Assembly: GCA_016866215.1 (NCBI GenBank)
Contig: VGNE01000032.1
Coordinates: forward strand, 1-42,885
From: Chloroflexota bacterium
GTDB lineage: Bacteria; Chloroflexota; Anaerolineae; Anaerolineales; Villigracilaceae
Reading direction: 5' to 3'
Length of the DNA stretch: 42,885 nt
Below, piece after piece: positions 3,298-28,022 of this stretch. The notes under the pieces are model-generated. The model was not told the DNA's origin. It saw only the letters and a program-made list of their open reading frames with translations, and did not search any database. The first letter of the stretch is position 1. Every line of letters begins with the position of its first letter. The position numbers and the translations under genes were made by a program.

Positions 3298-4110
3298 ATG
3301 CGAGTCGCATTTCAAGGCGAAGCAGGCGCTTATTCTGAGCAGGCAGTTTTTGAGTATTTTGGAAGCGTGGAGACCCTCCCATGCGAGTCGTTCGACGCGG
3401 TCTTCGACGCGGTCAATTCGGGGAAGTGCGAGGCGGCTTTAATCCCGATTGAGAATTCCCTGGCCGGGAGTATTCATCAAAATTATGATTTGTTGTTGCG
3501 GAATAATTTGCACATCGTTGGCGAATATCTTTTGCGCGTGAGACATTGTTTGATTGCAAACCCAGATGTGAAAAAAGAAGATATCAAGAAAGCCATCAGC
3601 CACCCGCAGGCGCTGGGACAATGCGCGGGTTATTTGCGGAATAACGGAATTAAGGTGGAGCAAGTCTACGACACGGCGGGAAGTGTGAAAATGCTCAAGG
3701 AATCTGGCGCACGCAATGTGGCGGCGATTGCTTCACGCCGCGCGGCGGAATTGTATGGGATGCAGATCCTGGAGGAGGGAATTGAAGACAACTCGGAAAA
3801 CTACACGCGCTTCCTTGCCATTCAGCACGAAACGAAAATATCTGAAGGCGAATCAAAAACGTCCATTGTGTTCACGCTCAAGAACGTGCCAGGCGCATTA
3901 TTCAAAGCCTTAAGCGTGTTTGCCCTGCGTGACATTGACCTGACCAAAATCGAATCGCGTCCCTTGCAGGGAAGTCCGTGGGAGTATTTGTTTTACATTG
4001 ACTTCATCGGCGCAGCGCATGAAGATAAAACAAAACGTGCACTCGATCATTTGGGGGAATATGCTGTGATGCTGCGTGTACTGGGATCGTACCCAAGATT
4101 TAGGGGATAA
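3298..4110 (+). CDS. pheA: Prephenate dehydratase with C-terminal ACT domain
   Basis: Converts prephenate to phenylpyruvate, committing carbon to phenylalanine. The 270 residues match the monofunctional family. The catalytic PDT domain runs from MRVAFQGEAGAYSEQA through LIPIENSLAGSIHQNYDLL, ISHPQALGQC and the NYTRFL active-site motif near residue 175. An ACT domain then carries the Phe-binding GALFKALSVFA and IESRP motifs, so feedback inhibition by phenylalanine is expected. A strong AAAGGAG lies 8 nt before ATG 3298. The gene ends in its own terminator and is separate from the aroH-led unit. Confidence 0.97.
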   Translation: MRVAFQGEAGAYSEQAVFEYFGSVETLPCESFDAVFDAVNSGKCEAALIPIENSLAGSIHQNYDLLLRNNLHIVGEYLLRVRHCLIANPDVKKEDIKKAISHPQALGQCAGYLRNNGIKVEQVYDTAGSVKMLKESGARNVAAIASRRAAELYGMQILEEGIEDNSENYTRFLAIQHETKISEGESKTSIVFTLKNVPGALFKALSVFALRDIDLTKIESRPLQGSPWEYLFYIDFIGAAHEDKTKRALDHLGEYAVMLRVLGSYPRFRG

Positions 4111-4197: not shown

Positions 4198-4226
4198 TTG
4201 ACGCATCTGCGCGACGAGCATAGAAT
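4198..4226 (+). promoter_or_regulatory. Sigma-70 type promoter of the aroH-led aromatic operon
   Basis: TTGACG (4198-4203), a 17-bp spacer and TAGAAT (4221-4226) match the housekeeping consensus at 5 of 6 bases in each hexamer. The expected transcription start, about 7 bp after the -10 box, is near 4233. That is only about 4 bases before the leader-peptide ATG at 4237. Confidence 0.75.
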
Positions 4227-4236
4227 AGCCCCCAAC

Positions 4237-4314
4237 ATGCTTAAGTCCACTCGTTGGTTTGCGTTTTATTTTTATTACGGTTTCCGAGACTCGGTTGCCG
4301 TTGGTGGCGCTTAA
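4237..4314 (+). CDS. Aromatic-rich attenuator leader peptide (25 codons)
   Basis: The ORF reads MLKSTRWFAFYFYYGF and continues for nine more residues to TAA at 4312. Eight of codons 7-16 are Trp, Phe or Tyr (1 W, 4 F, 3 Y), the composition expected of a translation-monitoring leader for aromatic biosynthesis, comparable with the Phe-rich pheA leader of enterics. The promoter places the transcript start about 4 nt before the ATG, so no Shine-Dalgarno is possible and translation would be leaderless or nearly so. An intrinsic terminator at 4341-4371 follows, and aroH starts at 4426. The function is inferred from composition and position. Confidence 0.75.
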   Translation: MLKSTRWFAFYFYYGFRDSVAVGGA

Positions 4315-4340
4315 GTAGACAGAAAACTCTGTTCACGTAA

Positions 4341-4371
4341 AGAGCGAGGCCAATTGGTCTCGCTCTTTTTT
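4341..4371 (+). terminator. Attenuator terminator upstream of aroH
   Basis: AGAGCGAGGCC (4341-4351), loop AATT, GGTCTCGCTCT (4356-4366) and a run of T to 4371. This is a canonical intrinsic terminator in front of the operon rather than behind it. CGAGAC inside the leader ORF (4285-4290) is complementary to GTCTCG in the 3' arm (4357-4362), a candidate for a competing antiterminator pairing. Confidence 0.8.
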
Positions 4372-4388
4372 ATTACCCCTTACCCTGC

Positions 4389-4407: not shown

Positions 4408-4425
4408 AAAAACAAGGAGCAATCA

Positions 4426-4797
4426 ATGGCAATCCGTGGAATTCGTGGCGCGACAACCATCTCAGCAGATGAACCTGAATTAATTCTCGAGGCCACACGG
4501 GAATTACTTGAAGCAATTTTGGACGCGAATGAAAGCATGAAACCCGAAGACGTGGGCAGCGCGCTCTTTACCGTGACTGATGACCTCACATCCACCTTTC
4601 CCGCGGAGGCGGCGAGACAAATGGGATGGGGACTCGTCCCGTTGATGTGCACGATGGAAATTCCTGTCCCAAATAGTTTGCCAAGAGTCATTCGTGTGCT
4701 TGTCCATTGGAACACGGAGATGCCGCAAAATGAAATTACACATGTGTATTTACGTGACGCGGTTAAACTAAGACCCGACTTGGTCACTGCGCAGTGA
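4426..4797 (+). CDS. aroH: Chorismate mutase, AroH type
   Basis: Catalyses chorismate to prephenate, the branch point to Phe and Tyr. The 123 residues match the monofunctional trimeric Bacillus AroH family: IRGIRGATT with the N-terminal catalytic arginine, [46 protein letters not shown] and the conserved [12 protein letters not shown] tail. ATG 4426 is chosen because AAGGAG lies at 4414-4419; the longer open frame from 4354 starts inside the terminator. It is the first structural gene downstream of the aromatic leader, so it and the following genes should be attenuated together. Confidence 0.95.
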
Positions 4798-4909: not shown

Positions 4910-5953
4910 ATGATCATAATGAAATCCAACGCCACGCCGCAGCAGGTGGAAGCGGTGATCGCACAAATAAAAGCAATGGGATTGGCCGTACACCTTTCGC
5001 AAGGAGTCGAAGCGACGATTATCGGTGCCATCGGCGAGACACATAACATCCCTGTTGACCGCTTCGAAGGCTTGGACGGTGTGGACATCGTTCAGCGCAT
5101 TACCCAGCCGTACAAACTTGCCTCACGACAGTTTCATTCCGAGGATTCAGTTATCCCGATAGATGGTTTCACAGTCGGCGGCAATGATATCATTGTCATC
5201 GCGGGACCCTGCTCGGTGGAATCCCGTTCGCAGATTCTCGAAACCGCGCACGCTGTCCGTGAGGCGGGTGCGAATGCCCTGCGCGGCGGAGTCTTCAAAC
5301 CGCGCACATCGCCGTACGCTTTCCAGGGTCTCGGTGAAGAAGGACTTGAATACCTTGCGGAGGCACGCGAAGAAACTGGAATGCCTATCGTGGTCGAAAT
5401 TATGTCAGAGACTCAACTTGATCTCATGCTGAAATATGTGGATGTTTTTCAGGTTGGCGCACGCAACATGCAAAACTTTAATCTTCTGCGCGCGCTCGGC
5501 GAAACGCGCAAAAGTATTTTACTCAAGCGCGGTCTTTCAGCGACCATCGAAGAACTGCTCATGTCTGCCGAATATCTCCTTGCAGGCGGAAACAAGCAGA
5601 TTATGCTATGTGAGCGCGGTATTCGCACATTTGAAACGACCACGCGTAATACAACCGATATCAACGCCATTCCTGTTTTGAAAAACTTAACTCACCTGCC
5701 TGTTATCCTTGATCCATCGCACGCAACAGGTCACGCCGATTATGTCGCCGCGATCGCGCGGGCCGCAATTGCCGCGGGCGCAGATGGTCTCATCATCGAA
5801 GTGCATCCCGATCCCGCACATGCTGTATCTGACGGCAAACAATCCCTTAAGCCAGAAAAATTTGTCGAGATGGTTAATCAAGTTAAAGCGATTGCCGAGG
5901 TCATGGGTCGCCGCGTTGCGCCCATCCAGAAGCCTGTCACTGCAGGATGGTAA
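4910..5953 (+). CDS. aroF: 3-deoxy-7-phosphoheptulonate (DAHP) synthase, type I-beta with regulatory domain
   Basis: First shikimate step: phosphoenolpyruvate plus erythrose 4-phosphate to DAHP. The 347 residues comprise an N-terminal ferredoxin-like regulatory domain (about 1-75) and a TIM barrel as in Thermotoga-type enzymes. Motifs are [12 protein letters not shown], the RGGVFKPRTSPYAFQG substrate loop, VEIMSETQ, QVGARNMQNF, LLKRGLSATIEE, LCERGIRTFE, ILDPSHATGH and a metal-binding IEVHPDP. Feedback inhibition through the N-terminal domain is expected from the family. ATG 4910 aligns with the start of the broken copy at 363, and AGGAG lies at 4895-4899. Its last codons overlap the tyrA start. 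Confidence 0.97.
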   Translation: MIIMKSNATPQQVEAVIAQIKAMGLAVHLSQGVEATIIGAIGETHNIPVDRFEGLDGVDIVQRITQPYKLASRQFHSEDSVIPIDGFTVGGNDIIVIAGPCSVESRSQILETAHAVREAGANALRGGVFKPRTSPYAFQGLGEEGLEYLAEAREETGMPIVVEIMSETQLDLMLKYVDVFQVGARNMQNFNLLRALGETRKSILLKRGLSATIEELLMSAEYLLAGGNKQIMLCERGIRTFETTTRNTTDINAIPVLKNLTHLPVILDPSHATGHADYVAAIARAAIAAGADGLIIEVHPDPAHAVSDGKQSLKPEKFVEMVNQVKAIAEVMGRRVAPIQKPVTAGW

Positions 5954-6846
5954 ATAAAATGGAGGAAGGCTTTTCGCTGAAAGATTCAACAATTGGAATT
6001 TTTGGATTGGGACTCATGGGCGGCTCCATCGCGCTCGGACTCAAAGGGCATTGCCATACCTTGATCGGATTCGACTCGCATCTTCCCACGCTCGAACTTG
6101 CTCTTTCCAAAAAAATCATTGACCACGCTGAGAGTGTTCCCCCTCTCCTTTTGGGTGAGGGGCAAGGGGTGAGGGAACTCCCGCAAGTGGATTTGCTCAT
6201 CCTCGCGACTCCCGTGCAGTCAATCATAAATATCATTCAGCATTTGCCATCCCTCATGCCTAACGCATGTATCGTGCTTGATCTTGGTTCAACGAAACAA
6301 AATATTGCGCAAGCCATGTCCACCCTGCCAGAGCGATTTGATCCCATCGGCGGGCATCCCATCTGCGGAAAAGAAAAACTTGGCTTGGAAAATGCAGACC
6401 CGAATTTATATCAAACTGCTCCCTTTGTAATTACACCTTTGGAACGAACTACCCAACGAGCAAAATCTGCTGTCAAGCAGGTTATTTTGACAATAGGTGC
6501 GCATCTTATCGAAATGACTGCCGAAGAGCATGACTGCATCCTTGCATCCACAAGTCATTTACCATTTCTTCTCTCCTCTGCTCTCGCGCATTCAACGCCG
6601 CAGGAATTTGGTTCATTGATCGGTCCAGGCTTTCGCTCCGCCAGCCGCCTCGCAGGCACTCCCTCCCACATGATGATGGACATTTTGCAATCAAATCGCC
6701 AAAATGTGTTGCGGTCTCTTCTTGTTTTTCGCGAATCGCTTGATCGGATTGAATCTGCAATTGAAAACGAAGACACGCCTACACTGGCAACTCTTCTCGA
6801 CGAATCACGACACTCTTATGAAAACCTGCTCCACCCCAATCGCTAA
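5947..6846 (+). CDS. tyrA: Prephenate dehydrogenase
   Basis: Oxidatively decarboxylates prephenate to 4-hydroxyphenylpyruvate for tyrosine synthesis. The 299 residues show an N-terminal Rossmann fold (IGIFGLGLMGGSIALGL), ILATPV, DLGSTK, the active-site GGHPICGKEKLGLENA and a C-terminal helical dimerisation domain (SHLPFLLSSALA, GPGFRSASRLAGT). There is no ACT domain. ATG 5947 overlaps aroF by 7 bp; ATG 5959 is an alternative. About residues 64-78 (VPPLLLGEGQGVREL) are encoded by a GC-rich palindromic repeat lying in frame between a helix and the strand VDLLILATPV, where homologues have no such segment. Confidence 0.95.
   Translation: MVNKMEEGFSLKDSTIGIFGLGLMGGSIALGLKGHCHTLIGFDSHLPTLELALSKKIIDHAESVPPLLLGEGQGVRELPQVDLLILATPVQSIINIIQHLPSLMPNACIVLDLGSTKQNIAQAMSTLPERFDPIGGHPICGKEKLGLENADPNLYQTAPFVITPLERTTQRAKSAVKQVILTIGAHLIEMTAEEHDCILASTSHLPFLLSSALAHSTPQEFGSLIGPGFRSASRLAGTPSHMMMDILQSNRQNVLRSLLVFRESLDRIESAIENEDTPTLATLLDESRHSYENLLHPNR
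6136..6180. repeat. In-frame repeat inside tyrA
   Basis: The element starts with GTTCCC (6136-6141) and ends with GGGAAC (6173-6178). Its middle is CCTCTCCTTTTGGGTGAGG, the same family as 4389-4407. It begins exactly on a codon boundary and adds about 15 residues without a stop. Confidence 0.75.
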
Positions 6847-6884
6847 TCTCCAATCTCCAGTCTCCAATCACTCAACCACCTTTT

Positions 6885-8198
6885 ATGCAAATTACCCCCA
6901 TCCCTCACCCCCTTTCCGCCACCATCCGCGTACCGGGCTCCAAGTCGTTGACCAGCCGTGCCTTGCTGATCGCGTCACTCGCAAATGGCACCACGCGCCT
7001 AACCAACGCGCTCTTTTCCGACGACTCGCTTTACTTTGCCAGGGCATTGCAAACTTTAGGATTTGGTGTCCATCTTGATGAAGCCAACCACGAAATGACC
7101 GTCACGGGCTTAGGCGGAAAAATTCCCGCAACCCAAGCCGAACTCTTCATCGGCAACGCAGGCACAGCCGCGCGCTTTCTCTCCGCATTTCTTACTCTTG
7201 GCAACGGCGAATACATTTTGGACGGCGAGCCGCGCATGAGAGAACGTCCCATCGGCGACCTTGTTGATTCTCTTACGCAACTTGGCGCAATCATTCAACC
7301 AATCACGCAACTACACGCTTCGCGTGAGCGCAGTCGAAGGGACGCAACACGCAATACGATTTGTCCCCCCATCAAGATCATCGTAAACGGTTTGCCTGGT
7401 GGAAAAACGCAGATAGCAGGCGATATTTCATCCCAGTTTTTATCTGCCTTGCTCATGGTTGCTCCGTATGCTCAAAACCCGATTGAGGTTACTCTTTCAA
7501 CCGAATTGAACTCCAAACCCTACGTAGACATGACCATCGCTATCATGCGCGACTTCGGCGTGGAGATCGAACGAAACGCATATCAATCTTTTAGAATTCC
7601 AATTACGAATTACGCATCACGAATTACGTATGCCATTGAATCCGATGCCTCTGCCGCCTCCTACTTCTTCGCCGCTCCTGCCATTTGCGGTGGAACTGTC
7701 CGAGTGGAAAACATCTCGCGCAAATCTGTGCAGGGCGATATCGCATTTCTCGATGTTCTGAAACAAATGGGGTGTCAGGTTACAGAAGGGGAGAACTTTA
7801 TCGAAGTTACTGGAACAGAAGCATTGGCTGGTGCCGATGTGGATATGCGCGACATCCCCGACACCGCCCAAACTCTTGCTGCGATTGCGCCTTTCGCTTC
7901 TTCACCCACACGCATTCGCGGAATCGCCTCTGCAAGAGTCAAGGAGACTGACAGAGTTCATGCGACGTGCGCCGAACTTGCAAGACTCGGCATCCGTGTG
8001 GAAGAACATAAAGACGGCATGACCATCAATCCCGTAGAAACGATGCGCCCCGCTTCCATCCAAACCTATAACGATCACCGTATGGCAATGTCCTTTTCGC
8101 TGATCGGCTTGCGCGTGGAAGGCATCACGATTGAAAATCCATCCTGCGTTTCCAAAACATTCCCAAATTATTTTGAGGTACTCAAACAGTTATCGTAG
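6885..8198 (+). CDS. aroA: 3-phosphoshikimate 1-carboxyvinyltransferase (EPSP synthase)
   Basis: Transfers the enolpyruvyl group of PEP to shikimate 3-phosphate. The 437 residues have the two-domain EPSPS order: VPGSKSLTSRALLIASLA, the PEP-loop GNAGTAARFLSAFL, RMRERPIGDLVDSL, GDISSQFLSALLM, ESDASAASYFFAA, RVKETDRVHATCAELARLG and YNDHRMAMSFSL. The NAGTA loop resembles the class I type. Two stretches carry repeat DNA in frame: about residues 143-158 (ASRERSRRDATR region) and about 236-249 (RIPITNYASRITY). No clear Shine-Dalgarno precedes ATG 6885; a TCTCCAGTCTCC repeat fills the 38-bp gap after tyrA. Confidence 0.97.
   Translation: MQITPIPHPLSATIRVPGSKSLTSRALLIASLANGTTRLTNALFSDDSLYFARALQTLGFGVHLDEANHEMTVTGLGGKIPATQAELFIGNAGTAARFLSAFLTLGNGEYILDGEPRMRERPIGDLVDSLTQLGAIIQPITQLHASRERSRRDATRNTICPPIKIIVNGLPGGKTQIAGDISSQFLSALLMVAPYAQNPIEVTLSTELNSKPYVDMTIAIMRDFGVEIERNAYQSFRIPITNYASRITYAIESDASAASYFFAAPAICGGTVRVENISRKSVQGDIAFLDVLKQMGCQVTEGENFIEVTGTEALAGADVDMRDIPDTAQTLAAIAPFASSPTRIRGIASARVKETDRVHATCAELARLGIRVEEHKDGMTINPVETMRPASIQTYNDHRMAMSFSLIGLRVEGITIENPSCVSKTFPNYFEVLKQLS
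7313..7357. repeat. In-frame repeat inside aroA (first)
   Basis: CTTCGCGTGAGCGCAGTCGAAGG with flanking ACGCAAC blocks, a hairpin-prone element of intergenic type, encodes the ASRERSRRDATRN stretch. It falls between LTQLGAIIQ and PPIKI, where EPSP synthases have a much shorter connection. Confidence 0.65.
7592..7630. repeat. ATTACG-family repeat inside aroA (second)
   Basis: AATTACGAATTACGCATCAC followed by GAATTACGTAT encodes TNYASRITY. It matches the intergenic ATTACGAATTACG element at 3245-3264. The total loop length is close to that of homologues, so the repeat may have replaced native codons rather than lengthened the protein. Confidence 0.65.
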
Positions 8199-8276
8199 AA
8201 AGGAAACAGGTAAACAAGTAAACAGGTAAACAACGCAACACGTATCTTGTATCTTGTGACTCGTATCTCGTATTCC

Positions 8277-9119
8277 ATGAATTCATCCTTCCACCTCGGT
8301 CTCATCGGCTACCCCCTCGAACATTCCCTCTCGCCCAAACTCCACATTGCCGCATTGAAAGCATGTGGATTGCAAGGTGACTATTCACTGTTTCCCATTC
8401 ACCCCGATGACAAACAAGGCTTGAAGGATATACTCAACCATGTTCGCGCGGGCGAGATGCAGGGACTTAACGTCACTATTCCACACAAACAAAATGTAAT
8501 TTCGTTGTTGGATGAATTAACAGACACTTCTATATCAATAGGAGCGGTCAATACAATTTATATGCGAGATAATAAGTTGACTGGACATAATACCGACGCG
8601 CAGGGATTTTTGACTGATTTGAAAAGATTCTTAACCACGGTGACACAGAGACACAGAGATTTATTAAATAAAAATGTTCTTGTACTTGGCGCGGGAGGTT
8701 CGGCTCATGCAGTAGTTTACGCCTTGCTCAATGGTGGCTGGAACGTCACAATTGCCGCGCGCCGCATAGAACAAGCCGAACAACTCTTAACTTCATTTCC
8801 GAATTACGAATTACATATTACGCATTCCACCAACCTGCGACTTTCGACCTTCGACCTGTTGGTAAACACTACCCCTCTTGGCATGTCTCCAAACATAGAC
8901 CAATCTCCCCTGCCTGCAAATCTGTCATTGCCTTCAAATACTTTAATTTACGATTTGGTCTACAATCCACGTGAGACAAAGCTGGTGAAAGATGCCCGCG
9001 CAAAAGGTTTATTTGCTACAAATGGATTTGGCATGTTAATCGAACAAGCCGCGCTATCCTTTGAAATCTGGGCAGGTCACAACCCACCGCGTGAAATCAT
9101 GCTATCTTCAATTTCATAA
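8277..9119 (+). CDS. aroE: Shikimate dehydrogenase (NADP+)
   Basis: Reduces 3-dehydroshikimate to shikimate. The 280 residues show the substrate domain (GYPLEHSLSPKLHIAAL, GLNVTIPHK with the catalytic Lys, GAVNTIY, GHNTDAQGF), the Rossmann loop VLGAGGSAHAVVYAL, NTTPLGMSP, YDLVYNPRETKL and GFGMLIEQAA. Two in-frame repeat-derived segments are present: LTTVTQRHRD just before the Rossmann strand, and NYELHITHSTNLRLSTFD before NTTPLG. ATG 8277 is chosen because upstream sequence is junction repeat (GTATCTTGTATCTTG). No strong Shine-Dalgarno is visible. Confidence 0.96.
   Translation: MNSSFHLGLIGYPLEHSLSPKLHIAALKACGLQGDYSLFPIHPDDKQGLKDILNHVRAGEMQGLNVTIPHKQNVISLLDELTDTSISIGAVNTIYMRDNKLTGHNTDAQGFLTDLKRFLTTVTQRHRDLLNKNVLVLGAGGSAHAVVYALLNGGWNVTIAARRIEQAEQLLTSFPNYELHITHSTNLRLSTFDLLVNTTPLGMSPNIDQSPLPANLSLPSNTLIYDLVYNPRETKLVKDARAKGLFATNGFGMLIEQAALSFEIWAGHNPPREIMLSSIS
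8634..8658. repeat. In-frame ACCACGGTGACACAGAG repeat inside aroE
   Basis: The stretch ACCACGGTGACACAGAG followed by ACACAGAG encodes TTVTQRHRD. It lies between the helix after GHNTDAQGF and the Rossmann strand NVLVLGAGG, where homologues have only a short link. Confidence 0.65.
8799..8856. repeat. ATTACG-family plus CTTTCGACCTTCGACC repeat inside aroE
   Basis: GAATTACGAATTACATATTACGC-type DNA followed by CGACTTTCGACCTTCGACC encodes the segment NYELHITHSTNLRLSTFD. Both parts look like junction repeats rather than conserved enzyme sequence. Confidence 0.65.
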
Positions 9120-9182
9120 CGGAACACGCAACACGAAGCACGTAAACAGGTAAACACGTACACAAGGAAACACGGAGAAATT

Positions 9183-10352
9183 ATGCTACGCTTCTTAACC
9201 GCAGGTGAATCGCACGGACCATCACTTACCGCAATTTTAGACGGCATGCCTGCTGGCTTATCTATCACTGCTGAAATTATTAACAAAGAACTTGCCCGCC
9301 GCCAACAAGGCTACGGCTCAGGCGGACGCATGAAGATCGAAAGGGACACTGTTCAAATTCTCGGCGGAGTCATGGCGGGCGAAACTACAGGCGCGCCGAT
9401 TGCCCTGCTCGTCCAAAACAATGATCATCTCAATTGGAAGGGCAAAGCCATTGAGCCGATGACCGCCCCGCGCCCAGGTCATGCGGATTTGACAGGCGCG
9501 GTGAAATACGGTTACAAGGATTTACGCCCAGCCCTTGAGCGCGCCTCTGCACGCGAAACCACGATGCGCGTCGTGGTTGGTGCGGTGTGCAAACATTTCC
9601 TTTTACAATTTGGAATCATCATCGGCGGATACGTTTCATCCATTGGCGAAGTGCAAACCGATTTTGGCAACATGCCTTTTGAAGAACGCTTTACCCGCGC
9701 TGATGAATCCGATGTGCGCTGCCCGGTTGAATCATCCTCCGCAAAAATGCGCGACGAAATCGAGAAGGCCATTCACGGAAAAAATACTTTGGGCGGTATG
9801 CTTGAAATCGTCGCGCTCAACCTTCCCGTCGGTCTCGGCAGTTTTGTGCAATGGGATAAACGCCTCGAAGCCAAACTCGCCATGGCGATCATGTCCGTGC
9901 AAGCCATCAAAGGTGTTGAAATTGGCGATGCGTTTGAGAATGCAAAACGAGTTGGTACACAGGCGCATGACCCAATTCAATTACGTAATACGCAATACGT
10001 GATACGTAATTCGAACCGCGCAGGCGGAATCGAAGGCGGAATCAGCAACGGACAGCCGATTGTCATCCGTGCGGCGATGAAACCAATAGCCACCACGCTT
10101 CTTCCCCAGCCGACAGTTGACCTTGCGTCAGGGATAGAATCTCCCACCCAATATGAACGCTCCGATTTTTGTCCCGTACCACGCGCTGTTCCCATCCTTG
10201 AAGCAATGGTTGCCTTTGTTTTAGCAGACGCGCTGATCGAAAAACTCGGCGGTGATTCAATAAACGAAATGAAACCGAGATTTGAAACATTGAAAAAAGC
10301 AACACTTGAAGACCTGCCAATGGATAATATCGCGCACATATTTTGGGAATAA
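9183..10352 (+). CDS. aroC: Chorismate synthase
   Basis: Final step: EPSP to chorismate, using reduced FMN. The 389 residues carry MLRFLTAGESHGPSLTAILDGMPAGL, RRQQGYGSGGRMKIE, TTGAPIALLVQN, PRPGHADLTGAVKYG, LERASARETTMRVVVGA, NRAGGIEGGISNGQPIV and a C-terminal DFCPVPRAVPILEAM. Residues from about Pro265 in the loop before NRAGG (IQLRNTQYVIRNS) are encoded by a palindromic ATTACG repeat of the same length as the usual variable loop. A GGAG motif lies about 7 nt before ATG 9183. The 5' gap is a GTAAACAGG junction repeat. Confidence 0.97.
   Translation: MLRFLTAGESHGPSLTAILDGMPAGLSITAEIINKELARRQQGYGSGGRMKIERDTVQILGGVMAGETTGAPIALLVQNNDHLNWKGKAIEPMTAPRPGHADLTGAVKYGYKDLRPALERASARETTMRVVVGAVCKHFLLQFGIIIGGYVSSIGEVQTDFGNMPFEERFTRADESDVRCPVESSSAKMRDEIEKAIHGKNTLGGMLEIVALNLPVGLGSFVQWDKRLEAKLAMAIMSVQAIKGVEIGDAFENAKRVGTQAHDPIQLRNTQYVIRNSNRAGGIEGGISNGQPIVIRAAMKPIATTLLPQPTVDLASGIESPTQYERSDFCPVPRAVPILEAMVAFVLADALIEKLGGDSINEMKPRFETLKKATLEDLPMDNIAHIFWE
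9979..10011. repeat. ATTACG palindrome inside aroC
   Basis: AATTACGTAATACG (9979-9992) pairs with CGTGATACGTAATT (9998-10011) with mismatches. It encodes the variable loop before NRAGGIEGG and is related to 3217-3264. Confidence 0.7.
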
Positions 10353-10360
10353 ATATTACG

Positions 10361-10458
10361 CGTCATTGCGAGGGCGGCGCTCTTCCGCCCGAAGCAATCT
10401 CCTTGCGCATGGGGGGATTGCTTCGTCGCGAAGAACAAGAGCGCTCCTCGCAATGACG
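10361..10458. repeat. CGTCATTGCGAG-type palindromic element between aroC and aroKB
   Basis: CGTCATTGCGAG at 10361 is mirrored by CTCGCAATGACG ending at 10458. Inside are the complementary blocks GAAGCAATC and GATTGCTTC, plus GCGCTCTT and AAGAGCGC. Related elements lie at 28884-29004 and 36508-36622. It fills nearly the whole 117-bp gap before aroKB. Confidence 0.85.
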
Positions 10459-10469
10459 GATGGAGAACT

Positions 10470-12044
10470 ATGCCACACATCTTCCTCTACGGTCCCCCAG
10501 GGACAGGCAAATCCACAGTTGGGAAAAAACTTGCGGGCAATCTCAAACTGCCATTCATTGACCTTGACCGCGTGATCGAAACGAACACGGGTATGGCGAT
10601 TTCGCGCATCATGGAACAACAAGGTGAATCCATTTTTCGTGATTTGGAAACAGCTGCGCTAAAAGAAGCCGTAGGTCACGCTTCTAGCGTGACAAATCCC
10701 ACAAACCCTGGCGGGTTACAAACCCGCCCTACCTTGGTAATTGCTCTTGGCGCTGGCGCGCTTTTGCGAGACGAGAACCGCGCTTTTGCGGAGAGCCATG
10801 GCAAAGTGATCCTGCTCATGGCGGAATTGAAAACTCTACTTGGAAGGCTCAACACAGAGTCTGGTAACCGTCCTTTGCTGGTGGGTGATCTGCGTGAAAA
10901 ATTAACGGCATTACTTGTAAAGCGTGGTGACCATTACAATTCCTTTCCTCTGCTTATCCACGTGGATGGAAAAACCGCGGAACAAAACGCGCATCGTGCG
11001 CAGGTGGTATTGGGACGGCATCACTTGTCTGCGATGGGCGAGTATGATGTGGTCGTAGGACAAATTGGCAATTTGTCCTACATGCAAAACCCGATCATTG
11101 TGACCGATGAAAACGTGGCGATGTTTCACCTTGAAAAAATGAAGGCAGTTTTACAGGATGCGGGTTTTGAACCAAAGTCTGTCATTGTTCCCGCAGGCGA
11201 AAAACATAAAAACCTCGAAACCATTTCCTATTTATGGAAATCATTTCTTGAAAATGGACTTGATCGCAAAAGCACAGTCATCGCTTTGGGCGGTGGTGTG
11301 ATTGGAGATATGGCAGGCTTCGCCGCTTCAACCTATATGCGCGGAATTGACTGGGTGGCTGTGCCGACGACATTACTATCAATGGTGGATGCTTCCCTTG
11401 GCAGCAAGACAGGCTTTGACCTGCCCGAAGGCAAGAACTTGATCGGCTCGTTCCATCCACCGAAATTGGTTTTGGCTGATCCGCAATTGCTTGGCACATT
11501 ACCCGAAGCGGAGTTGATCTCCGGCATGGCAGAAGTGGTCAAGCATGGCATTATCTCTGATCCTGAGTTATTCGCATTATGTACGCGAGGACTGGATTGG
11601 GTAAAAAATAACTTGGATGAAATCGTCAAATGCGCGATGGCGGTGAAGATTAAAATCATCGAAGAAGACCCGTATGAAAAAGGATTTCGCGCTGCGTTGA
11701 ATTTGGGTCACACGGTTGGGCACGCGGTTGAACTTGTCAGCAAATTCAACTTGCGGCATGGAGAAGCCATTGCCATCGGGATGGTGGCAGAGGCGAAGTA
11801 TTCTGCCCGGGTTGGGCTGGCAGGCGTCGGGTTGGCGGAGGCGGTGGCTGAGTCATTATCAGCGTTGGGGTTGCCCATCCACATCCCGCAAGATATGCCG
11901 CGCGAGGAAATTATCCGCGCAATGCGGGTGGATAAAAAGAAGAATGCAAAAGCCATCCGCTTTGCGCTGCCAGTTGAGATTGGCAGAGTGGAACTGGTCG
12001 CGGTGCGTGTGACGGATTTAGAGGCAGTGATCAGTGAGCAGTAA
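10470..12044 (+). CDS. aroKB: Bifunctional shikimate kinase / 3-dehydroquinate synthase fusion
   Basis: A 524-residue fusion. The N-terminal shikimate kinase (about 1-180) has Walker A GPPGTGKST at residues 8-16, the DLDRVIE shikimate site, FRDLE, and GAGALLRDENR, where the usual GGG motif reads GAG. The C-terminal dehydroquinate synthase (about 205-524) has TDENV, VPAGEKHKNLE, GGGVIGDMAGFAASTYMRGI, PTTLLSMVDASLGSKTGFDL, KNLIGSFHPP, AEVVKHG, LNLGHTVGHAVE and RHGEAIAIGM, including the metal ligands. AroK-AroB fusions are known, for example in Thermotoga. Repeat DNA adds 21 codons in the kinase and 9 codons in the interdomain linker, both exactly in frame. The last codons (VISEQ) also come from a junction repeat. 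Confidence 0.95.
   Translation: MPHIFLYGPPGTGKSTVGKKLAGNLKLPFIDLDRVIETNTGMAISRIMEQQGESIFRDLETAALKEAVGHASSVTNPTNPGGLQTRPTLVIALGAGALLRDENRAFAESHGKVILLMAELKTLLGRLNTESGNRPLLVGDLREKLTALLVKRGDHYNSFPLLIHVDGKTAEQNAHRAQVVLGRHHLSAMGEYDVVVGQIGNLSYMQNPIIVTDENVAMFHLEKMKAVLQDAGFEPKSVIVPAGEKHKNLETISYLWKSFLENGLDRKSTVIALGGGVIGDMAGFAASTYMRGIDWVAVPTTLLSMVDASLGSKTGFDLPEGKNLIGSFHPPKLVLADPQLLGTLPEAELISGMAEVVKHGIISDPELFALCTRGLDWVKNNLDEIVKCAMAVKIKIIEEDPYEKGFRAALNLGHTVGHAVELVSKFNLRHGEAIAIGMVAEAKYSARVGLAGVGLAEAVAESLSALGLPIHIPQDMPREEIIRAMRVDKKKNAKAIRFALPVEIGRVELVAVRVTDLEAVISEQ
10671..10733. repeat. 63-bp composite palindrome in frame inside the aroK domain
   Basis: Two hairpins, GGTCACGCT-TCT-AGCGTGAC and GGCGGGTT-ACA-AACCCGCC, lie between outer GTAGG and CCTAC ends. 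The element is exactly 21 codons and begins on a codon boundary. It falls between the helix LETAALKEA and the strand TLVIALGAG, where shikimate kinases have only a few residues. Confidence 0.85.
11055..11081. repeat. 27-bp perfect palindrome in the AroK-AroB linker
   Basis: GTAGGACAAATT (11055-11066), GGC, AATTTGTCCTAC (11070-11081): 12-bp perfect arms, exactly 9 codons in frame, encoding VGQIGNLSY. Confidence 0.85.
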
Positions 12045-12072
12045 TTAGTGATCAGTGATGGAAAGGATGAAT

Positions 12073-12507
12073 ATGAAAATTTTGATCTTGCATGGCCCAA
12101 ATTTAAACCTGCTTGGCACGCGCGAACCCGAAGTATATGGTTCGATGACTCTCGATGACATTAATAAAAAGATGATCGAGTTAGGCAAAGAACTGGGCGT
12201 GGAAATAAAATGCATCCAATCGAATCACGAGGGCGCGTTGATTGATGCGTTGCATGATGCGCGCATGTGGGCGAACGGAGTTGTGTTCAACCCTGGCGGA
12301 TATACCCATATATCCGTAGCATTACGTGATGCGATCTCCGCGATTCAAATCCCAGTGATTGAAGTGCATTTATCCAATGTATATGCGCGTGAAGAATTCC
12401 GCCATGTTTCGATGATCTCTGCGGTGTGCAAGGGGAAGGTTGTTGGTTTTGGCTGGAGGTCTTACGAGTTGGGTTTGCATGGGTTGATTGATATAATCAA
12501 GCCGTGA
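12073..12507 (+). CDS. aroQ: 3-dehydroquinate dehydratase, type II
   Basis: Dehydrates 3-dehydroquinate to 3-dehydroshikimate. The 144 residues match the small type II dodecameric family: LHGPNLNLLGTREPEVYG with the catalytic Tyr, CIQSNHEGALIDALH, the FNPGGYTHISVALRDAI loop, EVHLSNVYAREEFRHVS with the catalytic His region, and a GFGWRSYELGLHGL tail. ATG 12073 is chosen because AAAGGA lies at 12062-12067; earlier in-frame starts fall within that signal and a CAGTGATCAGTGA repeat. The stop overlaps the next gene's GTG start. With this gene the locus has all seven shikimate steps. Confidence 0.96.
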   Translation: MKILILHGPNLNLLGTREPEVYGSMTLDDINKKMIELGKELGVEIKCIQSNHEGALIDALHDARMWANGVVFNPGGYTHISVALRDAISAIQIPVIEVHLSNVYAREEFRHVSMISAVCKGKVVGFGWRSYELGLHGLIDIIKP

Positions 12508-27592: not shown

Positions 27593-27764
27593 TTGCCAAG
27601 ATGAGAATTCCATGATAAAGTTGCGCTTGTAGGATGCAAGTAGGTTTTCGTTGTGGAAGTATCAAGAAGAATGCTCAAAGCACAACCTTTGAGTCGCTTT
27701 ATTTACACCCGATGAAAGACATACTGCGTCACCTTATTTTTTTTCTTTTGCTTAGGAGGCAAAA

Positions 27765-27974
27765 ATGTCTGAACGTGTCATCGGTACAGTAAAATGGTTC
27801 AATGGAACCAAAGGTTTTGGTTTCATCGAACGCGAAGGCGGCCCGGATGTCTTCGTCCACTTTTCAGCGATCAAAGGTGAAGGTTTCAAGAACCTGCAGG
27901 AAGGCCAGAAGGTTGAATTCACCATCGAACAAGGCCCCAAGGGTTTGCAGGCCGCTGATGTAGTGCCACTCTAA
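27765..27974 (+). CDS. Cold-shock protein (CspA family)
   Basis: A 69-residue OB-fold RNA chaperone with both RNP motifs: [16 protein letters not shown] (RNP1 region KGFGFIE) and DVFVHFSAI (RNP2 VFVHF). A strong AGGAGG lies 7 nt before ATG 27765. The 172-bp leader after the preceding stop is AT-rich with a TTATTTTTTTTC run and could be a long cold-shock 5' UTR. A strong terminator follows the stop. Confidence 0.96.
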
Positions 27975-27988
27975 TTCCGAACTTGACA

Positions 27989-28022
27989 AAAAGAGTCCCG
28001 TCGAAAGGCGGGACTCTTTTTT
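27989..28022 (+). terminator. Intrinsic terminator after the csp gene
   Basis: AAAAGAGTCCCG (27989-28000), loop TCGAAAGG, CGGGACTCTTTT (28009-28020) and more T: a textbook intrinsic terminator. Confidence 0.92.

Follow-up and report, generated by a model that had tools for sequence, protein, structure and literature searches.

A conserved leader with Phe and Tyr codons ahead of the shikimate genes of Anaerolineales, very probably a transcription attenuator

Results

Shikimate locus and leader element

The stretch of DNA that was analyzed (the window, 42,885 nt) is one entire contig of a genome made up of 128 contigs. A single strand carries, in order, genes annotated as trpA, an aminotransferase, and pheA, then a leader element, and then aroH, aroF, tyrA, aroA, aroE, aroC, an aroK-aroB fusion, and aroQ. 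The gene annotated as trpA was identified by reading and from its neighbors, and the other genes of the run were identified with NCBIfam models. The first gene of the shikimate run, aroH (4414 to 4797 with its Shine-Dalgarno sequence, forward strand), encodes a monofunctional chorismate mutase (TIGR01796, 148.9 bits; cutoff, 82) and starts with an ATG at 4426, preceded by AAGGAG at 4414 to 4419. The presumed remainder of the operon, from aroF (DAHP synthase) through aroQ, lies at 4910 to 12507 on the same strand, with tyrA named from prephenate dehydrogenase matches that scored under their cutoffs. Weak terminator-like and promoter-like sites among the genes from aroH to aroQ showed no excess over shuffled sequences, and control of this entire one-strand run by the leader is plausible from the gene arrangement. 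Elsewhere in the window, at 363 to 1014, the 5' portion of another DAHP synthase gene (profile positions 1 to 128 of 338) is fused near 760, in a different frame, to the 3' terminus of trpB (positions 308 to 384 of 385), a junction that represents either a deletion or an assembly chimera; no trpE match over its cutoff was found in the genome of the window.

The leader element begins with a predicted promoter, TTGACG-N17-TAGAAT (4198 to 4226, forward strand), in which a −35 box (4198 to 4203) and a −10 box (4221 to 4226) are separated by 17 nt, with a predicted transcription start at about 4233. The leader ORF, MLKSTRWFAFYFYYGFRDSVAVGGA, contains 25 codons (4237 to 4314, forward strand), and its ATG (4237 to 4239) is located 10 nt past the −10 box and hence about 4 nt past the predicted start. 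Its aromatic residues are W7, F8, F10, Y11, F12, Y13, Y14, and F16, and the Phe and Tyr codons at positions of approximately 11 to 16 are the predicted sensor.

Several competing RNA structures were predicted within and after this ORF, all on the forward strand. Region 1, ACGGUUUCCGA (4277 to 4287), would form the 5' arm of a pause hairpin (1:2; −11.5 kcal/mol), whose 3' arm, UCGGUUGCCGU (4291 to 4301), was placed by folding and covariation and overlaps region 2. Region 2, GCCGUUGGUGGCGCUUA (4297 to 4313), spans codons 21 to 25 plus the initial two bases of the stop codon and is the predicted 5' side of an antiterminator. The predicted 3' side is region 3, GAGCGAGGCCAAUUGGU (4342 to 4358), which includes the 5' arm, the loop, and the first 3'-arm bases of an intrinsic terminator (3:4; 4339 to 4375). 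The terminator has a 13-bp stem (4339 to 4351 with 4356 to 4368), an AATT loop, and a T-rich tail (−21.5 kcal/mol). Positions 4297 to 4358, which would be transcribed before the terminator is complete, fold as the antiterminator (−23.3 kcal/mol). That fold also contains a small hairpin, GACAGA/UCUGUU (4318 to 4333), between regions 2 and 3; it would draw the antiterminator arms together, and a similar sequence occurs in many leaders of the same genus.

An earlier sequence-only reading of this DNA had described the promoter and an ATG about 4 nt after the predicted start, a 25-codon ORF with W, F, or Y at eight of codons 7 to 16, and aroH with its own Shine-Dalgarno sequence, and in these respects its coordinates and description were correct. 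The terminator that it reported is also present, with a gap of 27 nt when counted from the first base of the leader stop codon and of 24 nt when counted from the last.

The aromatic ORF was distinct from background. On neither strand of the window (42,885 nt) did any other ORF of 8 to 60 codons contain at least 6 aromatic residues per 10, and when the upstream region (315 nt) was shuffled 3,000 times with its dinucleotides preserved, at least 8 aromatic residues were reached in 0, at least 7 in 3, and at least 6 in 27. The leader RNA fold was 6.25 standard deviations more stable than the folds of shuffled sequences. Pattern scans recovered promoter-like sites (3, versus 2.8 expected) and terminator-like sites (3, versus 4.4 expected) without excess, so such scans carry no weight alone, and the strength and conservation of the sites count instead. 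No T-box, riboswitch, or other Rfam family reached its gathering score over the leader element, and assignment as a T-box leader was rejected on this basis. The only Rfam match in the whole window was RF01766, the cspA thermoregulator (27648 to 28021; 94.5 bits; cutoff, 78), which overlies an apparent cold-shock protein gene (27765 to 27974) and may therefore reflect the coding sequence only.

Conservation of the leader in relatives

Relatives of aroH were present in 52 of 61 genomes and at 34 loci on named contigs, the genomes of which are partly shared with that set; the named relatives of the window were mostly Chloroflexi and Anaerolineales MAGs. The starting set of 84 loci was reduced to 83 by removal of one without an aroH start (L063) and then to 73 distinct upstream regions. 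Leaders were defined as short ORFs starting with ATG and containing at least 5 aromatic residues per 10, and by this rule 68 of the 73 regions upstream of aroH (window included) contained a leader ORF. Conservation in relatives had been named beforehand as a point on which the sequence-only reading could fail, and this result leaves that reading standing. Among the five regions lacking a leader by rule, the contig of L019 starts within a visible leader, and no leader was seen in the 170 nt of L021 up to the contig edge. At L064, L077, and L079, aroH stands in another upstream context, in which no aromatic leader was seen. The leader starts of L030, L058, and L084 were shifted by the script to an inner ATG.

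A terminator followed the leader ORF in all 68 cases. Promoters scoring at least 9 of 12 were found for 61 of the 68 leaders, with a spacer of 17 nt in 58 of them and a distance from the −10 box to the ATG of exactly 10 nt in 53. In the cultured Leptolinea tardivitalis YMTK-2 (L061), which also carries the element, the scan for close promoters reached only 5/12, and inspection by eye showed TTGACT-N16-TACAAT located 17 nt ahead of the ATG. A motif resembling a Shine-Dalgarno sequence preceded the leader ATG in a single case (1/68). From this promoter geometry and the missing motif, the leader ORF is predicted to be nearly leaderless, with a very short 5' leader, as had been proposed from the window.

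In the reading frame of the ORF, the aromatic fraction of the codon block was 0.739, whereas the two alternative frames gave 0.202 and 0.132. The order of Phe and Tyr differed between leaders (for example, AFYFYYG and AYFYFYG), which suits a codon class better than a fixed sequence. Past the aromatic run, the peptides of L046, L059, and L067 come from a different frame, and several loci added later were likewise frame-shifted, with endings resembling LPLVALK. The RNA was retained in each of these cases, which argues against a role for the C-terminal part of the peptide.

RNA secondary structure

In an alignment of the 68 leaders (A1), 92.5% of the cells in the pause hairpin and terminator were paired, and 15 of the 21 base pairs showed double-sided changes. 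None of 500 shuffles equaled this covariation on any of five measures, in a test that does not model relatedness. For the pause hairpin alone, 87.3% of cells were paired, with double-sided changes in 6 of 9 pairs; the terminator alone had such changes in 9 of 12. Coding sequence makes up the tip of the pause hairpin, and this tip occurred as CCGA:TCGG in 26 rows, CCGG:CCGG in 4, CCAG:CTGG in 3, and other versions. These versions pair although the encoded residues differ, indicating that the residues change jointly in a way that preserves pairing. Compensatory changes in the hairpins of relatives, another point raised beforehand, were thus observed for both structures.

Evidence for the antiterminator was supportive but weaker. 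Its two sides, region 2 (leader codons 21 to 26) and the terminator 5' arm plus loop, were paired in 88.7% of cells. On the fixed columns of A1, covariation was not above chance, with 8 cells showing double-sided changes (reached by 419 of 500 shuffles) and a score reached by 417. When each region 2 from 61 divergent leaders was matched either with the region 3 of the same leader or with that of another, none of 20,000 re-pairings was as good as the natural one (mean, −19.9 versus −18.3 kcal/mol); among 21 divergent leaders, which are included in the 61, 26 of 20,000 permutations were as good. This test models composition only in part and relatedness not at all. After double centering, 40 of the 61 natural combinations of regions 2 and 3 were better than expected. 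Compared with shuffled region 2 sequences, the antiterminator was in the best 5% for 81 of 108 leaders (best 1% for 42) and outside the best 5% for 27.

Two other pairings were rejected. CGAGAC (4285 to 4290), which the sequence-only reading had paired with GTCTCG in the 3' arm of the terminator, is present in the window as described, but the two sequences occurred together in just 6 of 68 leaders, window included, and the pairing was discarded as the antiterminator. The long pairing between the start and end of the ORF in the minimum-energy fold of the free RNA was not conserved either; it uses CTTAAG at the start of the ORF, and the pairing is missing from the clade with leaders of the RFYFAYYF type.

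Codons within the predicted stall window

The stall window was defined as codons with a first base between 12 nt before and 6 nt after the start of region 1. After exclusion of three repeats (L145, L151, and L176) and a Thr leader (L206), 44 newly scanned leaders contributed 40, giving 108 with the original 68; two of these (L172 and L204) had no region 1 anchor, leaving 106. Phe codons were found in the stall window of 102 leaders, Tyr codons in 104, both in 100, and Trp codons in 5, of which two (L149 and L166) appear to have misplaced anchors. Trp occurred anywhere in the leader in 46 of 106. Trp at codon 7, as in the window, was a feature of one clade.

Codon 7 begins 22 nt upstream of region 1, and the footprint of a ribosome extends approximately 12 nt beyond the A site. 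The leader is therefore read here as a putative sensor of Phe plus Tyr, with W7 too far upstream, and Trp was rejected as a general signal. The claim that one leader senses all three aromatic amino acids was thus not upheld. Sensing of Phe and Tyr fits the operon because chorismate mutase, encoded by the first gene, and tyrA belong to the Phe/Tyr branch. Given the distance and the footprint, a ribosome stalled at codon 7 should leave region 1 free and favor termination; as a more speculative possibility, a shortage of Trp in the clade of the window may even act through this early codon with the reverse sign and stop transcription.

Distribution and related leaders

Model R1 was run on a draw of 400 genomes from the order and matched 198 of them; the 202 without a match in part reflect genome incompleteness and stringent filtering. 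Matches were found in 127 of 210 good-quality genomes and in 74 of 130 genera of the order, counts that include genomes used in building R1. In a draw of 400 genomes from the phylum there were 29 matches, 2 of them outside the order with E values of 4e-4 and 8e-4 per genome, at which chance hits are possible. Forty stretches (41 leaders) were picked from about 150 places among the R1 matches listed, favoring divergent genera. Among 92 loci derived from R1 (window and model-building loci included), 86 carried aroH and 4 more carried aroF without aroH. Outside the order, the leader of L204 (MQRFATFFFYFFYFTS...) precedes aroH, and that of L205 (MNSVRTYYWNYYFLG...) precedes an AroFGH-type DAHP synthase gene (TIGR00034, 469.8 bits; cutoff, 173.2); the antiterminator of L205 was the least supported of the 108. 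Genome G364 has tandem DAHP synthase genes (L175, G364:C143:34900-38400), each with its own leader, and the two leader peptides are identical except for FFFFW versus FFYYF.

Leader ORFs rich in other amino acids were found ahead of other biosynthetic genes. Thr-rich, often Thr/Met, leader ORFs, predicted to be nearly leaderless, preceded aspartokinase genes (L236 to L265; for example, MHNLLKSTKHGLGTMTTTSGKRRGAFVLGQR). Among these 30 loci, which include one from the genome of the window itself (L244, contig C50), 20 had a Thr-rich ORF, a terminator, and a promoter scoring at least 9 of 12, 4 more had the ORF and terminator without such a promoter, and 6 had no leader. The Thr leader at L206 likewise has a Thr-rich ORF starting with ATG. 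A His-rich leader ORF and a terminator preceded hisG at 11 of 14 loci (L266, L268, L269, L271 to L277, and L279; for example, MNTLCTRKHHHHIQPPHGREVCACVPVKG), a count that leaves out one partial locus of 15 (L280), and in 10 the distance from the −10 box to the ATG was 10 nt. That distance was mostly 10 to 11 nt in aro, thr, and his leaders alike. No branched-chain leader was recognized before ilvB in 21 of 25 loci scanned, where one doubtful ORF passed the filter. The loose filter applied to 21 trpE loci let some short ORFs through, but no convincing Trp leader was among them; trpE may not be the first gene of its operon, so the right region may have been missed.

Model R2, built from the aro leaders minus their sensor codons, landed just before aspartokinase genes in at least five genomes (G039, G052, G038, G046, and G045; E values, 5e-10 to 6e-4). 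The weakest of these E values (6e-4) is within the range of ordinary terminators. Many weak R2 matches resemble ordinary terminators, and only those directly before aspartokinase were therefore used. A shared near-leaderless attenuation code in Anaerolineales, with similar promoter-to-ATG units for Phe/Tyr, Thr, and His leaders and with the aro and thr leaders of some families made from one scaffold by exchange of sensor codons, is a tentative and rather speculative extension of these observations.

Discussion

The element ahead of aroH is, with high probability, a transcription attenuator of the classical ribosome-mediated kind, with charged Phe-tRNA and Tyr-tRNA as its signals. Comparison among relatives establishes the predicted ORF, its codons, the promoter geometry, the pause hairpin, and the terminator as conserved features. 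The earlier proposal of an aromatic-codon leader and attenuator at this position is supported by the conserved ORF, the terminator, and the covarying hairpins, and the attenuator is very probably real and operates broadly along the proposed lines, once its sensor and antiterminator are corrected. In the proposed mechanism, transcription would start a few bases before the leader ATG, at a site that is a prediction, as is the site of termination, and a ribosome would initiate at this nearly leaderless end of the transcript. With Phe-tRNA or Tyr-tRNA in short supply, the ribosome would halt at codons of approximately 11 to 16 and cover region 1, region 2 would then pair with region 3, and RNA polymerase would continue on to transcribe aroH and the shikimate genes. 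With both amino acids plentiful, translation would proceed as far as the stop codon, which lies within region 2, and the terminator would form; without translation, the 1:2 hairpin would form and so would the terminator. Translation, stalling, the direction of this response, and the extent of the operon are what we infer from the arrangement of these parts.

Equal-sign sensing of all three aromatic amino acids would suit an operon that supplies all three aromatic pathways, and W is present at codon 7 here and somewhere in nearly half of the leaders (46/106), but the near absence of W from the stall window (5/106, two of them probably from misplaced anchors) and its complete absence from the RFYFAYYF-type clade make this unlikely. 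The peptide itself might instead act, by nascent arrest or as a functional small peptide, with no sensing of codons. The leader peptide is hydrophobic, and many leaders of the same genus share an ending similar to SVAVGGA; changes of C-terminal frame that leave the RNA intact, the variable order of F and Y residues, and substitutions that track base pairing make a peptide function of this kind very improbable.

Control by a T-box, a riboswitch, or a protein-bound attenuator, with the ORF incidental, would likewise make use of the terminator and alternative folds found here. Such an element would hardly be expected to conserve in-frame aromatic codons and promoter-to-ATG spacing, and the locus gave no Rfam family at gathering score. 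It is equally hard to credit that the hairpin merely terminates the upstream pheA unit, unrelated to the ORF. The pheA gene does end at 4110 on the same strand, but a conserved promoter lies between it and the hairpin, pheA was beside aroH in only 10 of 86 model-matched loci (many of which are too short upstream to tell), and trpA takes the place of pheA at L190 to L192.

If attenuation by Phe and Tyr is correct, classical ribosome-mediated attenuation would be conserved across an order in a phylum with little genetics. It would suggest that, at the least, the synthesis of aromatic amino acids, threonine, and histidine is under attenuation control in Chloroflexota. It would also require coupling of transcription and translation on nearly leaderless RNAs, making such coupling testable in Chloroflexota, and many unannotated short ORFs could be named. 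The natural variants (order of F and Y, frame-shifted tails, and tandem DAHP synthase leaders) provide ready experiments on the specificity of sensor codons.

Comparison with known systems

Ribosome-mediated attenuation governs the trp, pheA, his, and thr operons of Proteobacteria. The pheA and pheST leaders of that phylum combine Phe codons with a pause hairpin, an antiterminator, and a terminator, the set of parts predicted here, whereas the element described here has mixed Phe and Tyr codons, no Shine-Dalgarno sequence on the leader ORF, and chorismate mutase and shikimate genes downstream. The Rfam family Phe_leader (RF01859) aligned to it end to end at 19.5 bits, below the gathering score of 55, and membership in that family was rejected.

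Outside Proteobacteria, a 2010 study states that, to the knowledge of its authors, no leader peptide system outside Proteobacteria and Actinobacteria had been demonstrated until its own Firmicutes case (PMC2965389). His leaders in Firmicutes were found by comparison (PMC2965389, PMC9413887); like the leaders presented here, they are classical leaders beyond those two phyla, although they concern histidine only. In Actinobacteria, a 2005 study found no such leaders at Phe or Tyr operons (PMC1262725). A survey of short leader genes covered Chloroflexi, and its text on that group calls the signal insignificant (PMC4833913). No report of leader-peptide attenuation in Chloroflexota was found in the open-licence literature, which is without most subscription papers, and the broad survey of Lopatovskaya et al. 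(2010) could contain cases.

The sequence-only reading had called a combined leader translated without a Shine-Dalgarno sequence apparently undescribed. The phylum part of that claim stands, as far as the open-licence literature goes, in which we found no case described for Chloroflexota; the mechanism is not new, and attenuator leaders lacking a Shine-Dalgarno sequence are known. The latter include the leaderless trpL, leuL, ilvL, and other leaders of Streptomyces lividans (PMC8079986), the leaderless trpL of Sinorhizobium meliloti (PMC7298713), and formation of the ilvBNC leader of Corynebacterium glutamicum without a ribosome binding site, according to a title cited in PMC4046766. The Streptomyces and Sinorhizobium leaders have an ORF at or near the transcript start and no Shine-Dalgarno sequence, as is predicted for those described here; they belong to other phyla and other amino acids, and their starts were mapped by experiment, whereas the present starts are predicted.

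A mixed Phe/Tyr leader is described before aroF in C. glutamicum (PMC4046766, PMC11802643). This leader, aroR, contains Phe-Tyr-Phe, and stalling on it raises transcription (Neshat et al. 2014, as described in PMC11802643); the account given there reports an effect on transcription for Phe only and not for Tyr. From these descriptions of its content, aroR is like the leader presented here in having a short Phe/Tyr leader peptide ahead of a DAHP synthase gene, and the Anaerolineales leaders differ from it in belonging to another phylum, in preceding aroH first and then aroF, and in having longer runs of F and Y.
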